From positions 186,001-250,000 of the forward strand of contig NZ_LOCQ01000055.1 in NCBI RefSeq assembly GCF_001677885.1: a stretch of DNA of 64,000 bases, given 5' to 3'. The translations under genes were made by a program, and so were the position numbers. The first letter of the stretch is position 1. Each line of letters begins with the position of its first letter. Shown in pieces: positions 7,158-15,579 of this stretch. The notes under the pieces were generated by a model that saw only the letters and a list, made by a program, of their open reading frames with translations, was not told the origin of the DNA and did not search any database. The stretch is from Janthinobacterium psychrotolerans (GTDB lineage Bacteria; Pseudomonadota; Gammaproteobacteria; Burkholderiales; Burkholderiaceae_D).

Positions 7158-7191
7158 ATTTCCATAAAATTGTCAAATTTTGGGGAAATAT

Positions 7192-8514
7192 ATGGCTACT
7201 TTACCGCGTGGAATCACAGCAGTAAGTTGGAAAAATAGCACTAAGTCAAAAGAGAAGATTGTCAAGTACAGAGTACGAGTGCAGAAAAAAGTTGATGACC
7301 AGCAAGTCAAGCTTGACAGCCTTTTTGACACACTTCAACAAGCTGTGGACGAATTGAATAATTTCAAGTCAAAAGCGGGTAGCTATTTTTTAAGCACAAT
7401 TGACAAGCTTAAAGAAGAAGAAAGAAAAAAAGTAAATGAGTTCTTGGTCGCTCCCCCGATCTCTGTATATATTAGTAAATATATTACAGAAAAAATTGAC
7501 ACAAGAAAAAATGAAACTCAAACACAACAAAGAAACACAGCAGTAATAAAGTCTTTTTTTAAAACAATCCTTAAAACAAAAATTCCGAACCGTCACTACT
7601 CAACAACAGAACCACTTTTGCAAGCAGGCGGTATGCTTGCTTTGATAGCGAACAATACACTTTCACAGGCAGAAGAAAAAAAAGAGTTTGGAGCATTTAA
7701 AGTTCAAGAAATTTCATACATTGAAATTAATGACTACATAAAAGAACGCCTAAAAACAGTCAAAAAAATATCTGTCACAAGAGAACTTTCTTTCATTAAA
7801 AAAGTATTTAATGAACTGAAATATTATGATAAGTCCTTTTTCAGCCTTAAAAACCCTGTTTTATTTTATGATAAAGGCTTATTAGCCAATAGTGACATTT
7901 CTTCAAAAAATAGCTATCGCTTATCAACAGAAGACAAAGATATTTTGTTCGGTGCTCTCCACAAATACAGCAATTGGGAATTGAAAGCTATCTCGTTACT
8001 TTCATATTACTGTGGTTTTAGTAGAAGTGAGATTGTCCCATTGACTTGGGAACAAGTTAATTTAGCTGAGAATTATGTTCAGCTTTATCAAAAAAAATCA
8101 GGCCAACCAAGAAAAGTTTACATTTTAAAAGAGGCAAAAGAAATATTTGAAAATATGCCAAAGACCAACGGCGACAGGCTCTTTAGCTATGGGGTCTTAG
8201 GATTTTCGGGCTCATTTGATAAGCTTGTTGAAAAGTTGGGTTTGAGAAAAAAAGGTTTTCGTTTTCACTTTTTTAGAAGGGAAGCCATATCAAATTTAGT
8301 ATTCAATTTAAGTCAAGCGACTGGAAGCACTGGACAAGATTTTTCTATTCTTATTAGTGAAATTCTGGGCATTGAGAATATAGCTTCACTTGAAAGAAAT
8401 CATATAAATCAATTGTCACCAACAGAAATAGCATCACAAAATCAGGTTATGAAGTCTGTAGGACACAGCAACAAAAAAACAACAAAACGATACTCTAGAA
8501 TAAAAATTCGATAA
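7192..8514 (+). CDS. Tyrosine recombinase / integrase of the element
   Basis: A 440-residue site-specific recombinase with the full tyrosine-recombinase active site: Arg278 in GFSRSEIVPLTW, a lysine in the QKKSGQPRK hairpin, His359xxArg362 in FHFFRREA, His425 in SVGHS and nucleophile Tyr434 in KRYSR. The N-terminal ~230 residues would be the arm- and core-binding domains; they are lysine-rich and do not match a subfamily I recognise. ATG 7192 is chosen because GGGGAA (7182-7187) lies just upstream; a TTG at 7180 precedes that site. It is adjacent to attL, the normal position for such an enzyme. Codon use is strongly AT-biased, unlike flanking genes. Likely functional. Confidence 0.9.
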   Translation: MATLPRGITAVSWKNSTKSKEKIVKYRVRVQKKVDDQQVKLDSLFDTLQQAVDELNNFKSKAGSYFLSTIDKLKEEERKKVNEFLVAPPISVYISKYITEKIDTRKNETQTQQRNTAVIKSFFKTILKTKIPNRHYSTTEPLLQAGGMLALIANNTLSQAEEKKEFGAFKVQEISYIEINDYIKERLKTVKKISVTRELSFIKKVFNELKYYDKSFFSLKNPVLFYDKGLLANSDISSKNSYRLSTEDKDILFGALHKYSNWELKAISLLSYYCGFSRSEIVPLTWEQVNLAENYVQLYQKKSGQPRKVYILKEAKEIFENMPKTNGDRLFSYGVLGFSGSFDKLVEKLGLRKKGFRFHFFRREAISNLVFNLSQATGSTGQDFSILISEILGIENIASLERNHINQLSPTEIASQNQVMKSVGHSNKKTTKRYSRIKIR

Positions 8515-8596
8515 AAATAAAACAATATAATATTGATTTTTAAAAGATATGGGATAAAAAAATTTGTATTTTTTGTTGCAATATAGAACAAAAAAG

Positions 8597-8626
8597 TTTA
8601 CTAGACAGTTAAAAATAGAATATAAT
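8597..8626 (+). promoter_or_regulatory. Putative promoter of the small membrane-protein gene
   Basis: TTTACT 8597-8602 and TATAAT 8621-8626 with 18-base spacing, in AT-rich DNA, upstream of the ATG at 8666. The perfect -10 is persuasive; the -35 is weak. Confidence 0.45.
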
Positions 8627-8665
8627 TTCATTTTAGCATTATTTTTTAATTCTTAAGGAATTGCA

Positions 8666-9121
8666 ATGAAGCAAGTAAGTGGCGTTTTGAAAAAACTTGG
8701 ATCGGCAAATTTGACACATGGAAATGTTGGGTCTTCTACCATTAAATATAATACAATTCAAATTGGTAATAACGTTCTTCAGAAGATAGTAACGGCTCAG
8801 AGCTTAGACGATTTTTTGACACAGGGCTTGGGTCAAGAAGTAACCTTATTTTTGAATAAAAATATGCTTATCGGAATAAAACTTCAGGACGGTCAAATTT
8901 ATTATTGGAAAAGAAGTTTTAGTTTATTTTTATTTGCTATTATTTTATCAATTGCTCAGTTGGGTTTTGCTTACGCAATCGGTGGATTAGCAAATAATTT
9001 CGTCATTCCAATGATTGTTATGTTTGCAGTCATATTTTTCACGTCTGGCTCAATTTTTATGCAGAGATTAATTTATGAGCCAAAATTATCCTCCGCGGGT
9101 GGCGTGCCACTTAGGGGATAA
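8666..9121 (+). CDS. Two-helix membrane protein of unknown function (element cargo)
   Basis: A 151-residue protein. Residues 1-80 form a soluble, beta-rich domain (TIQIGNNVLQKIV, LDDFLTQGLGQEVTLFLNKNMLIGIKLQDGQIYYW), followed by two transmembrane helices at about 88-108 and 113-133 and a short tail. AAGGA precedes the ATG. It has its own promoter and terminator, so it is a single-gene unit. I do not recognise the family. In a small mobile element, a two-helix protein with a soluble domain could be an exclusion, toxin or immunity protein, but nothing in the sequence decides this. Confidence 0.7.
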   Translation: MKQVSGVLKKLGSANLTHGNVGSSTIKYNTIQIGNNVLQKIVTAQSLDDFLTQGLGQEVTLFLNKNMLIGIKLQDGQIYYWKRSFSLFLFAIILSIAQLGFAYAIGGLANNFVIPMIVMFAVIFFTSGSIFMQRLIYEPKLSSAGGVPLRG

Positions 9122-9134
9122 GAAACTAACAATG

Positions 9135-9163
9135 AAAAAGGAACTCGACGAGTTCCTTTTTTT
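9135..9163 (+). terminator. Intrinsic terminator after the membrane-protein gene
   Basis: A run of A, then GGAACTCG-A-CGAGTTCC, then seven T. The A- and T-runs pair as well, so it could work in both directions. Confidence 0.8.
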
Positions 9164-9255
9164 CGTCCAAAAAAAAGCTCCATTGCTGGGGCTTGATTTT
9201 TTAAGATTATCTTTTTTAATGATTAGTGCTAACTATAAAATTAAAAGGAAATCTT

Positions 9256-9537
9256 ATGTCTTTAAATATAAATAATAAATCTGTTGTTGTCAATAACTCA
9301 AATGAAGAATCTAATTATTTTTCATTAAATAAAAAAGTCATCAAAGAACTCATTCAAATACCTCGCCCTAAAAACACACTACTTAATATAATGATTTTAT
9401 TGGCTTGTAAAGTGACTTATAAGAATGGTCTTGTCGGTGTTCATAGTGAAATTTCAAAAACGGGATTAGCTAAAGATCTAGGAATAAACAAATTAATTCA
9501 ATCTTGTTTTCAAAATTCAATCTTGAAATGCAAATGA
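9256..9537 (+). CDS. Small protein, possible winged-helix DNA-binding (element cargo)
   Basis: A 93-residue protein; AAGGA at 9245-9249 fits the ATG at 9256. The segment around residues 36-75 (LLNIMILLACKV...HSEISKTGLAKDLGI) looks like a winged-helix DNA-binding fold of the kind found at the front of plasmid or phage replication/regulatory proteins (helix, short beta turn, then AKDLGI-type recognition region). That is a weak, pattern-based suggestion. Its TGA overlaps the ATG of the next gene, so the two are coupled. It may be a truncated relic of a longer protein: coding changes frame just where a recognition helix would continue. Confidence 0.55.
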   Translation: MSLNINNKSVVVNNSNEESNYFSLNKKVIKELIQIPRPKNTLLNIMILLACKVTYKNGLVGVHSEISKTGLAKDLGINKLIQSCFQNSILKCK

Positions 9538-9722
9538 GTCAATTGAGTCATTTCAAAGAAAGTGATATTAAGAAAATTTTTGAGCTAAAACAGAAAATTG
9601 CAGAACTTCAACAGCAAATTGAAACATTGAAAGCAAAGCAAGAACAATCAGCAGAGTCTGCATTGATTGCTAAACGATTTACACCGTTTCCAACACAAAA
9701 AAACGGTCTAGAACGACCGTAG
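9534..9722 (+). CDS. 62-residue coiled-coil protein (element cargo)
   Basis: Starts at ATG 9534, which overlaps the previous stop (ATGA). In-frame ATG 9528 and TTG 9504 are alternatives with no good ribosome-binding site. Residues ~8-43 are a clear heptad-type coiled coil (KKIFELKQKIAELQQQIETL). The last ~12 codons lie inside the left arm of a 33-bp inverted repeat, so coding sequence and DNA/RNA structure are superimposed. It could be an oligomerising partner of the 93-residue protein, an excision factor, or the out-of-frame tail of that protein after a frameshift. Unknown function. Confidence 0.5.
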   Translation: MSQLSHFKESDIKKIFELKQKIAELQQQIETLKAKQEQSAESALIAKRFTPFPTQKNGLERP

Positions 9723-10418: not shown

Positions 10419-11309
<891 letters not shown>

Positions 11310-11460
11310 GTTTACTCCTCGTAGTCTTGCTTGTTCCATACGGCCTTGCCACGCGGCAGGGACCAGTTTCGTTCTTTTTGCTGTATCCGGTCTTGCGGTT
11401 TGCAACTGGCGGCGCCATCTTTATCTGGCGGCCATGGCCTTGTTGCAAACGCTATGACAT

Positions 11461-11490
11461 ATATTAGCACTCTCTGATGGAGAGTGCCAA
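11461..11490 (-). promoter_or_regulatory. rpoH promoter (extended -10) overlaid by CIRCE
   Basis: On the minus strand TTGGCA (11490-11485) and TAATAT (11466-11461) are 18 bases apart, with TGC before the -10. It overlaps the CIRCE palindrome completely, so bound HrcA would exclude polymerase. The remaining bases to 11782 (end of ftsX) hold no gene I can support. Confidence 0.75.
11464..11490. promoter_or_regulatory. CIRCE operator (HrcA binding site)
   Basis: TTAGCACTC-N9-GAGTGCCAA matches the CIRCE consensus TTAGCACTC-N9-GAGTGCTAA at 17 of 18 positions with the exact 9-base spacer. CIRCE is the target of the HrcA repressor, typically at groESL and dnaK promoters. Here it covers the rpoH promoter. 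No hrcA gene lies in the window. Confidence 0.9.
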
Positions 11491-11782
11491 TCAGCTGATC
11501 CAATCGCTCCGATAGCCAAAATACTATGACGTTCGAAAGGCTGATGGTGTCTGGGCAATGCGGTCTTGCATGGGGATGACGCCAGTGTGCGCCGATTGTG
11601 GCTGACGTGAAAGCGCCGCACAGTAGCCTATGGCAACTATGGCAGAACTGCATATCATTCCCTATGGCAATGTCAATATTCTACGCAGGCTAACTGAAGT
11701 GGGCCTTAAGAATCCTTGTCAAAAATCAAGGGTATTAGGCGGGTGCATGGGACGGCGCCGGCAGCGCCGCCCCGGCAGGATG

Positions 11783-12703
11783 CTAGTTGACGCGCGCCAG
11801 GTGGCGCTGCACGCACAGGAAGGCGCCGATCAGGCCCAGCCCGGCGCTGACGGCCAGCAGGCCCGCCATCGGCAGCGGCGCCAGCGGCGTCATCTGGAAT
11901 TCCGAGGCGTACAGGCGGGCAAATTCGGCAATTGCCGTATTGAGCGGCTGCAAGGCCAGTGCCACGCCACCCAAGGCCAGTGCACCCGCGCACAGGCCCA
12001 GCAGCGCACCCGTATAGTAAAACGGCCGGTGGATAAAGGTGTCGGTGGCGCCGATCAGTTTCGAGATGGTGATTTCGTCGCGCTGCGTCATCACCTGCAG
12101 GCGAATGGTGTTGAACACCACCGCGATCACGGCCACGCCCAGGGTAATGGCCAGCAGCAGCAGTACCAGGCGCAGTACGCCCAGCAATGCGGCCAGGCGC
12201 TTGACCCAGGCCGAATCGACCTGTGCCGATTCCACGCCCGGCAACTGGCGCAGCAGCTCGGCCACCGCATCGACATCCTGCGCTTCGGTGGCGGTATTGA
12301 AGGCGTTCAGTTTCAGCACGTAGCTGTCGGGCAGCGGATTGTCGCCCAGGGTGTTGAGCACGTCGGCCAGGCCGCTCTTGCTTTTCAGCGATTCAAGCGC
12401 TTCCTCGCGTGGAATAAAGACGATTTTCGCCTTCGGGTCGTGCACGATCTTGCGCATTTCGCCGGCCAGGCCGCTGGCCTGCGCGCGCGGCGTATCGGTC
12501 TTCATGAAGACGCTGATTTCCGGATCGACCGACATCTGCTCGGACATCGGCCGCACATTGTCGAGCATGGTCAGGCCGGCAAACGGCAGCGACAGTGCGA
12601 TCGCCACCACCAGTACGTTGAGCAGGAAGCCGCTCGGCGACTTGCGCAAATGAATCAGCGCCGAGCCGAGCGCGAAGCGGTGTTGGCGGAACCAGCCTCT
12701 CAT
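11783..12703 (-). CDS. ftsX: Cell division protein FtsX
   Basis: A 306-residue membrane subunit of the FtsEX complex, which links ATP use to septal peptidoglycan hydrolase activation. One N-terminal TM helix (LLNVLVVAIALSLPFAGLTML), a periplasmic loop of ~110 residues, and three C-terminal TM helices match the family (MacB/FtsX layout). Its ATG overlaps the ftsE stop (ATGA). It is last in the ftsY-ftsE-ftsX unit. Confidence 0.93.
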   Translation of the reverse strand: MRGWFRQHRFALGSALIHLRKSPSGFLLNVLVVAIALSLPFAGLTMLDNVRPMSEQMSVDPEISVFMKTDTPRAQASGLAGEMRKIVHDPKAKIVFIPREEALESLKSKSGLADVLNTLGDNPLPDSYVLKLNAFNTATEAQDVDAVAELLRQLPGVESAQVDSAWVKRLAALLGVLRLVLLLLAITLGVAVIAVVFNTIRLQVMTQRDEITISKLIGATDTFIHRPFYYTGALLGLCAGALALGGVALALQPLNTAIAEFARLYASEFQMTPLAPLPMAGLLAVSAGLGLIGAFLCVQRHLARVN

Positions 12704-14634: not shown

Positions 14635-15579
14635 TCAGTGCGCCGGTCGCAGTTGCCCCTGGTGGCGGCGGCGCCAGTCGTCCATCGTCTGCGCCACCTG
14701 GCGCAAGTCCAGTACATGCAGGAATGCGGGAGGGCGTTTGTACAGCACCGGGCTGCGTCCGCCAGCCCACACTTCCACCTGCGGCGGCAGGCTGGCCTGC
14801 AATTGCTGCAGGCTGTCGCGCGTCTGCTTCTCCTTGCTGGCGCTGGAAAACGACAGCGCCACGATATCGGCCCGTTGCGCACGCGCTGCGGCGGCGATGT
14901 CGGCCAGCGGCGTTTCCACGCCCAGCGAGATGCACTCGGCACCGGCCGCCACGCACAGTGCTTCTGCCATCAGCAGGCCCAGGCCGTGGCGTTCGTTGGG
15001 CAGGGTGGTGAGCACGATGCGCGGCGTGCGGGTGCTGGGCAGGCTCGGCTGCGGCATGGAAAAGATGGCGTGACGCATCACCGTTTGCATGGTTTCGCTA
15101 TAGACATGCTCTTCATGGACGGCCAGGTCGCCGCAGGCCCATGCTTCGCCGACCAGGCTGGTCAGTGGTGCGATCACCTCGATGGTGAACTTTCTCAGGC
15201 CCAGCACGGCCAGCGCCTGGCGCAGCGCCGCGCCCAGTTCGGACAGGTGATGGCCGCGGCACAGGGCCAGATAGTGTTCGAGCTGGGGCTGTACCGGTTG
15301 CGACGCGGCCATGCCGGCGGCGGCCAGCGCGCGCAGCTGCGAGGTGCTGTGCTGCATGATCTTGCCAGGCCGGTAACCCATGTCCAGCAAACGTTTCACC
15401 ATGCGCAGTTTTTGTACCTGCTCCGTGGAATAGCTGCGTTCGCCGTGGGCGTCGCGCTGCGGCTGCGGAAAGGCATAGCGGCGCTCCCATACGCGCAGGG
15501 TTTCCTTGGCCAGGCCCGTATCGCGTTCGACATCGCTGATGCTGAAGGCGGCGGGCAGGGGGTGCTGGTCTGTATACAT
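14635..15579 (-). CDS. CarH/LitR-like MerR regulator with cobalamin-binding domain
   Basis: A 314-residue regulator: MerR winged helix at 12-80 (SISDVERDTGLAKETLRVWERRY), a helical bundle at ~95-165 and a Rossmann B12-binding domain at ~185-300. Trp147-x9-Glu157-His158 is the W-x9-EH light-sensing signature of CarH, and E196xH198xxG201 is the B12 lower-ligand motif, so adenosylcobalamin binding is expected. In Thermus CarH the residue right after this Trp is the His that ligates cobalt after illumination; here it is Ala148. Such regulators repress in the dark and release DNA in light. It is divergent from a peptide-SDR operon. Confidence 0.85.
   Translation of the reverse strand: MYTDQHPLPAAFSISDVERDTGLAKETLRVWERRYAFPQPQRDAHGERSYSTEQVQKLRMVKRLLDMGYRPGKIMQHSTSQLRALAAAGMAASQPVQPQLEHYLALCRGHHLSELGAALRQALAVLGLRKFTIEVIAPLTSLVGEAWACGDLAVHEEHVYSETMQTVMRHAIFSMPQPSLPSTRTPRIVLTTLPNERHGLGLLMAEALCVAAGAECISLGVETPLADIAAAARAQRADIVALSFSSASKEKQTRDSLQQLQASLPPQVEVWAGGRSPVLYKRPPAFLHVLDLRQVAQTMDDWRRRHQGQLRPAH

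Follow-up and report, generated by a model that had tools for sequence, protein, structure and literature searches.

The window, by which we mean the whole 64-kb stretch of DNA that was analysed, carries on its minus strand the genes ftsY, ftsE, ftsX, and rpoH in that order, and rpoH lies downstream of ftsYEX in Escherichia coli as well. A gap of 473 bp separates ftsX from rpoH, and since ftsX is upstream on the same strand, rpoH is the gene that an element in this gap can drive. The initial annotation had placed a sigma-32 gene here, and this proved correct, as the product passes the RpoH model at 405 bits over a cut-off of 323, compared with 155.7 bits for the RpoS model, and RpoH ranks ahead of both RpoD and RpoS as its best family. 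The nearest named RpoH is found in a Janthinobacterium metagenome genome and shares 94% identity. The start codon of rpoH is an ATG at 11309. The features of the gene and its upstream region are as follows:

10419 to 11309, minus strand: rpoH, encoding sigma-32, 296 aa (TIGR02392, 405.2 bits; NF005143, 416.4 bits)
11315 to 11320, minus strand: Shine-Dalgarno sequence of rpoH, GAGGAG, read from the sequence
11342 to 11364, minus strand: predicted stem-loop 2 in the 5' UTR of the rpoH transcript (helix 4, with four pairs changed on both sides)
11402 to 11446, minus strand: predicted stem-loop 1 in the 5' UTR of the rpoH transcript (helix 1, with three pairs changed on both sides among 15 genus sequences)
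11452 to 11455, minus strand: predicted transcription start region, from the promoter geometry, about 7 bases past the -10
11461 to 11469, minus strand: extended -10 TGCTAATAT, with TG at 11469-11468 and the hexamer TAATAT at 11466-11461, mostly in one operator arm
11464 to 11490, minus strand: CIRCE operator, a predicted HrcA site, TTGGCACTC-N9-GAGTGCTAA, matching in 17 of 18 positions
11485 to 11490, minus strand: -35 hexamer TTGGCA, at the outer end of the other operator arm

Two other regions of the window may be mentioned. The minus-strand gene at 14635-15579 encodes a MerR-type regulator, for which the best model is the B12-binding CarH at 130 bits, far below the cut-off of 400. On the plus strand, 7180-9540 contains an ORF of 444 aa that by eye resembles a tyrosine recombinase, with short ORFs behind it, and this region, which is near the conserved ftsYEX-rpoH block, is possibly the edge of a mobile element.

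The window was scanned with the CIRCE consensus TTAGCACTC-N9-GAGTGCTAA, allowing up to three mismatches. The operator at 11464-11490 was the single match in the 64 kb, with one mismatch and a spacer of nine bases, and no match was found in 100 dinucleotide shuffles of the window, so the 17/18 CIRCE with a 9-base spacer reported earlier is confirmed. Its assignment to the CIRCE family rests on the palindrome with spacer 9, on the presence of hrcA in the same genome, and on the position over the predicted rpoH promoter. The operator lies upstream of rpoH at a distance of 154 bp, and read toward the gene the order of bases is TTGGCACTC, the 9-base spacer, GAGTGCTAA, and TAT. The span 11461-11490 originally given to the element thus holds as operator for 11464-11490, the three bases at 11461-11463 being merely the end of a -10 hexamer.

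This hexamer belongs to a putative promoter embedded in the operator. On the minus strand it reads TTGGCA (11490-11485), 18 bases, and TAATAT (11466-11461), with TG ahead of the -10, and the last three bases of the -10 fall outside the operator. The coincidence of TTGGCA-18-TAATAT with CIRCE, which had been claimed for this locus, was borne out, and the promoter is of the extended -10 type and directed at rpoH. It is the only sigma-70-like match on the minus strand in 10500-12500. The call is weak by itself, because 9 of 12 bases are matched and 0.8 such matches are expected per shuffle with both strands taken together; its support is conservation. The -35 is imperfect, and the one CIRCE mismatch (TTGGCA for TTAGCA) brings it nearer to TTGACA. 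From this geometry, transcription of rpoH would start near 11454 and give a leader of about 145 bases. Further promoters independent of HrcA are possible in the 473-bp gap.

The predicted leader appears to be structured. In an alignment of 15 genus sequences, 7 of 22 pairs were changed on both sides yet still paired, and 95.7% of the cells pair; the covariation score was reached by none of 500 shuffles. The fold of the window's own leader is better than those of its shuffles by 2.1 standard deviations. The 15 sequences were taken from a pool of 27, made up of the window, 20 loci fetched by CIRCE coordinates, and six found via RpoH. Two loci present in the first alignment were left out, namely L271, which stops before the gene, and L272, which is divergent. 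A search of 10900-11800 against Rfam gave no match, hence the rpoH 5' UTR does not belong to the RNA thermometers catalogued there.

Absence of hrcA from the genome had been named as an observation that would speak against HrcA control. The host genome (5.84 Mb in 62 contigs) encodes one full-length copy, which scores 302.4 bits against TIGR00331 (cut-off 197). Of the Pfam models, the C-terminal domain of HrcA is matched with 213 bits, and the DNA-binding domain with 20.4 bits, slightly below its cut-off of 21. The whole genome contains two CIRCE sites within three mismatches, at groES and at rpoH, and the reversed control pattern gave no match; the HrcA regulon detected is thus one of two sites. 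The second site, at locus L002, is perfect and is found upstream of groES immediately after CTTGAA...CCCTATAAT, which resembles a sigma-32 promoter.

The initial annotation had proposed conservation in related genomes as a check, and the site was found before rpoH in 25 of the 36 other genomes of the genus, in 21 of the 23 other families of the order with an RpoH, and throughout most families of the class that carry hrcA. Each of these 36 genus members has two or more CIRCE sites. The rpoH loci of the genus that were read number 26, six obtained via RpoH hits and 20 fetched by the coordinates of the sites not at groES. The site is followed by an RpoH start in 25 of these, and the stretch of the remaining one, L271, ends ahead of the gene. 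L041 has TAAACT as its -10 hexamer and the other 25 have TAATAT, so that the final T is present throughout.

The order was sampled with 30 genomes, six of the genus and 24 of other families. RpoH scored above the cut-off in all except G042, which is 68% complete and was not counted. The two families with RpoH that have no CIRCE at rpoH within three mismatches are represented by G044, with four mismatches, and G054, with none. The gene hrcA is present in 29 of the 30 genomes, and G054 is the single genome that does not have it.

The position of the promoter relative to the operator differs between the two kinds of CIRCE sites. An alignment on CIRCE combined 87 rpoH sites, each from a different family, with 31 groES sites, the latter from the 30 of 37 genomes that were returned as loci and from L002 of the window genome. 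Counting the first operator base as position 1 and the last as 27, a T stands at position 30, three bases past the operator, in 82 of 87 rpoH sites and in 6 of 31 groES sites (Fisher 3e-15), and TANNNT occupies positions 25-30 in 81/87 and 5/31, respectively. The commonest rpoH hexamers here are TAAAAT (35 of the 87), TAATAT (14), and TAAACT (13). The -35 hexamer at rpoH is TTAGCA in 54/87 and TTGGCA in 22/87, and a G at the mismatch position of the window is commoner at rpoH (25/87) than at groES (3/31). At groES a TATTAT-like -10 extends into the first operator bases. It was considered whether the sigma-70 match might be a by-product of the palindrome; this was rejected, as the decisive base, position 30, is outside the operator and is not kept at groES. 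Given the differing placement of the -10, HrcA would cover the start region at groES and the promoter itself at rpoH. The T that closes the embedded -10 is kept at rpoH only, which means that operator and promoter coincide and that HrcA should compete with RNA polymerase. In one locus, L121 (G068), a second right arm and its -10 (GAGTGCTAAAAT) are found upstream of the rpoH CIRCE, as though the promoter half had been duplicated.

In the class sample, RpoH was found in 94 of 104 genomes, 93 besides that of the window, with upstream stretches from 30 returned and 64 fetched loci. Among the 93, 63 have both hrcA and the site, 23 have neither, five have only hrcA, and two only the site. A site was found in 1 of 1880 shuffled upstream stretches (mononucleotide shuffles, which are a crude control). 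Of 22 further genomes of the class, two have hrcA and the site, one of them in a variant form, and 20 have neither. Over the 138 rpoH-bearing class genomes examined, the numbers are 86 with both, 44 with neither, six with hrcA only, and two with the site only, so that eight disagree. The hrcA-bearing genomes that have no site within three mismatches are G071, G084, G094, G122, and G157, together with G044 mentioned above. The two sites for which no hrcA was detected are those of G074 (L145, one mismatch), where the assembly may lack hrcA, and G125 (L081, three mismatches), where the CIRCE may be decaying. Only one of the two rpoH loci of G090 has the site, and this genome was scored as having it.

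Fisher values overstate the evidence as the genomes are related, and phylogenetically independent contrasts are the fairer test. The RpoH tree used for these took the 76 of 138 genomes for which the complete rpoH gene had been retrieved and gave seven pairs, of which six are concordant, none is discordant, and one is a tie. The closest pair, G252 with both and G248 with neither, consists of two species of one genus.

Among 80 named rpoH loci, which were scanned for the site only, 46 have it within three mismatches. Among the misses are L204 and L267, which contain no upstream DNA, and many loci from gamma genera, including Vibrio and those of the Enterobacterales; none of the named rpoH loci from Enterobacterales carries a CIRCE. 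Outside the class, 42 rpoH loci were taken, one per genome. There hrcA is present in 33 of the 42 genomes, and a site within three mismatches in three, all of family f140; two of the 42 loci contain no CIRCE even within four mismatches. In f140, the site is present in the three hrcA-bearing genomes tested and absent from the two that lack hrcA, and the T at position 30 is missing after these sites. With 3 of 33 hrcA-bearing outsiders having the site at the rpoH locus read, the presence of hrcA is not enough to produce the link, which belongs to this class and to scattered outsiders, Geobacter sulfurreducens, with its published CIRCE at rpoH, being one of them.

A variant operator, TTAGCAGTC-N9-GACTGCTAA, was seen at rpoH in L306 (G252) and L228, with both arms changed together, and in partial form in L076 (G070) and L221. 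Its range is the family of G070 and G252 and named Lysobacteraceae-type genomes. It may be the target of an HrcA with shifted specificity.

The initial annotation had suggested that rpoH is under HrcA and that the two heat-shock circuits are thereby joined, and the sequence comparisons support this reading. We consider it highly probable that the element is a combined operator-promoter from which HrcA represses rpoH directly and is released on heat. The housekeeping RNA polymerase would use TTGGCA-18-TAATAT, with the extended -10 and with the two hexamers in the two CIRCE arms, and an active HrcA dimer would span the region from -35 to -10, shut out the polymerase, and keep rpoH low. HrcA requires GroEL to remain active, as known from work on Bacillus. 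Heat or unfolding stress would occupy GroEL, HrcA would leave, and rpoH and groESL would be transcribed, giving more sigma-32. The other HrcA site found in the genome is that of groESL, which has a sigma-32-like promoter in addition; HrcA would therefore control groESL both directly and via sigma-32, in a coherent feed-forward loop, and GroEL would close a feedback on HrcA. In this organism the binding, repression, heat release, and GroEL feedback are presumed from the arrangement of sites and genes. In a resistant Caballeronia symbiont, RpoH and GroEL are both reported to be up at 36 compared with 30°C (PMC12617022). This is a faint indication that fits the mechanism without testing it.

HrcA might also bind the operator and yet serve chiefly to tune basal rpoH expression to the amount of free GroEL, in which case the heat-induced rise of sigma-32 would be due mainly to translation and to the stability of the protein, as in E. 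coli. The structured and compensating 5' UTR of the genus leaves room for such post-transcriptional control. Set against it are the identity of the co-conserved second target, groESL, and the fact that HrcA is, as far as is known, a heat-released repressor wherever it has been tested, and we find this alternative unlikely, if deserving of serious attention.

It is less probable still, and in our judgement rather doubtful, that rpoH is transcribed mainly from other promoters, sigma-E or distal sigma-70, with the CIRCE-embedded promoter playing a minor part. In E. coli, rpoH is controlled through several promoters including the sigma-E-dependent P3, through an mRNA thermosensor, and through chaperone-mediated turnover, and such a multiplicity of promoters would be in keeping with this alternative. 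So would a sigma-E-like box seen in relatives. Counting the base before the operator as position 0, GAAC starts at -14 in 47 of the 87 rpoH loci and at -15 to -13 in 56, other offsets accounting for at most four. The favoured spacer bases are T at 10 and A at 12, and with the TC of the operator this gives GGAACTT-16-TCTAA, a sigma-E-type promoter with its -10 inside the operator. L073, L074, and L153 are examples of loci where the box overlaps CIRCE. In 22 further loci, 21 without hrcA and that of G252, a like pattern is present in 11, all of them without hrcA and without CIRCE. The window, however, lacks GAAC throughout the 30 bases that precede the operator, and a sigma-E promoter for the window (P3-type consensus GGAACTT-16-TCTRA) was rejected, the pattern being absent from the ftsX-rpoH gap. 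Outside the operator, moreover, nothing is conserved as well as the embedded -10. That the palindrome is a product of chance or a relic to which HrcA does not bind is very improbable indeed, considering that shuffles gave no match, that the site is lost with hrcA in six of the seven contrasts, and that the variant operator has both arms changed together.

Direct repression of rpoH by HrcA may be part of a larger arrangement. For Gammaproteobacteria in the wide sense, with the beta group included, we give equal weight to the arguments for and against an ancestral rpoH promoter that was a nested three-input switch of about 50 bases, from which the control in E. coli would be derived. The sigma-E -10 would be shared between the spacer and one arm of CIRCE, the housekeeping extended -10 promoter in both arms, and HrcA over both promoters, so that sigma-32 would receive a cytoplasmic input from GroEL and HrcA, an envelope input from sigma-E, and a basal input. 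Vibrio and Enterobacterales would have lost HrcA and the operator together, and the window would have kept the HrcA part without the sigma-E box. Given such a joint loss, the heat-shock regulation that textbooks describe for E. coli would be a derived state.

CIRCE, HrcA, and a CIRCE at rpoH are all of known kinds. The last of these was predicted upstream of rpoH in Geobacter sulfurreducens, with the perfect consensus and at position -51 (Table 8 in PMC545781). The two systems are alike in having an HrcA operator ahead of the sigma-32 gene; however, G. sulfurreducens belongs to another phylum, and among the genomes of that study it is the only one listed for rpoH (PMC545781). With groESL the rpoH locus shares the same repressor and the same operator in the same genome, but at rpoH the operator itself holds the -35 and most of the -10, while the -10 of groES runs into the operator start. 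The locus also resembles that of E. coli, in that the gene is the same and a sigma-E-type box is retained at rpoH in many relatives, although no hrcA was matched in the control genome of E. coli. A search of the open literature by titles and the beginnings of abstracts, with subscription journals mostly outside its range, returned no CIRCE at rpoH in beta- or gamma-proteobacteria and pointed to the Geobacter case alone. An article by Permina and Gelfand from 2003, the title of which names beta-, gamma-, and epsilon-proteobacteria, may well list rpoH, and a CIRCE at beta-proteobacterial rpoH may already be in print. The class-wide spread, and the overlap of a sigma-E-type promoter with the operator in many relatives, were not found in print in the open literature.

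Textbooks generally present the bacterial heat-shock response as two circuits that operate apart, HrcA/CIRCE and sigma-32. At this locus a site for the repressor of the HrcA circuit lies on the predicted promoter of the sigma-32 gene, and this link is kept in most of the hrcA-bearing families examined in the class. This suggests that the heat-shock scheme of E. coli is a simplified descendant, and if the reading is true, many beta- and gamma-proteobacteria, environmental and clinical ones alike, would have HrcA at the head of their heat-shock cascade.
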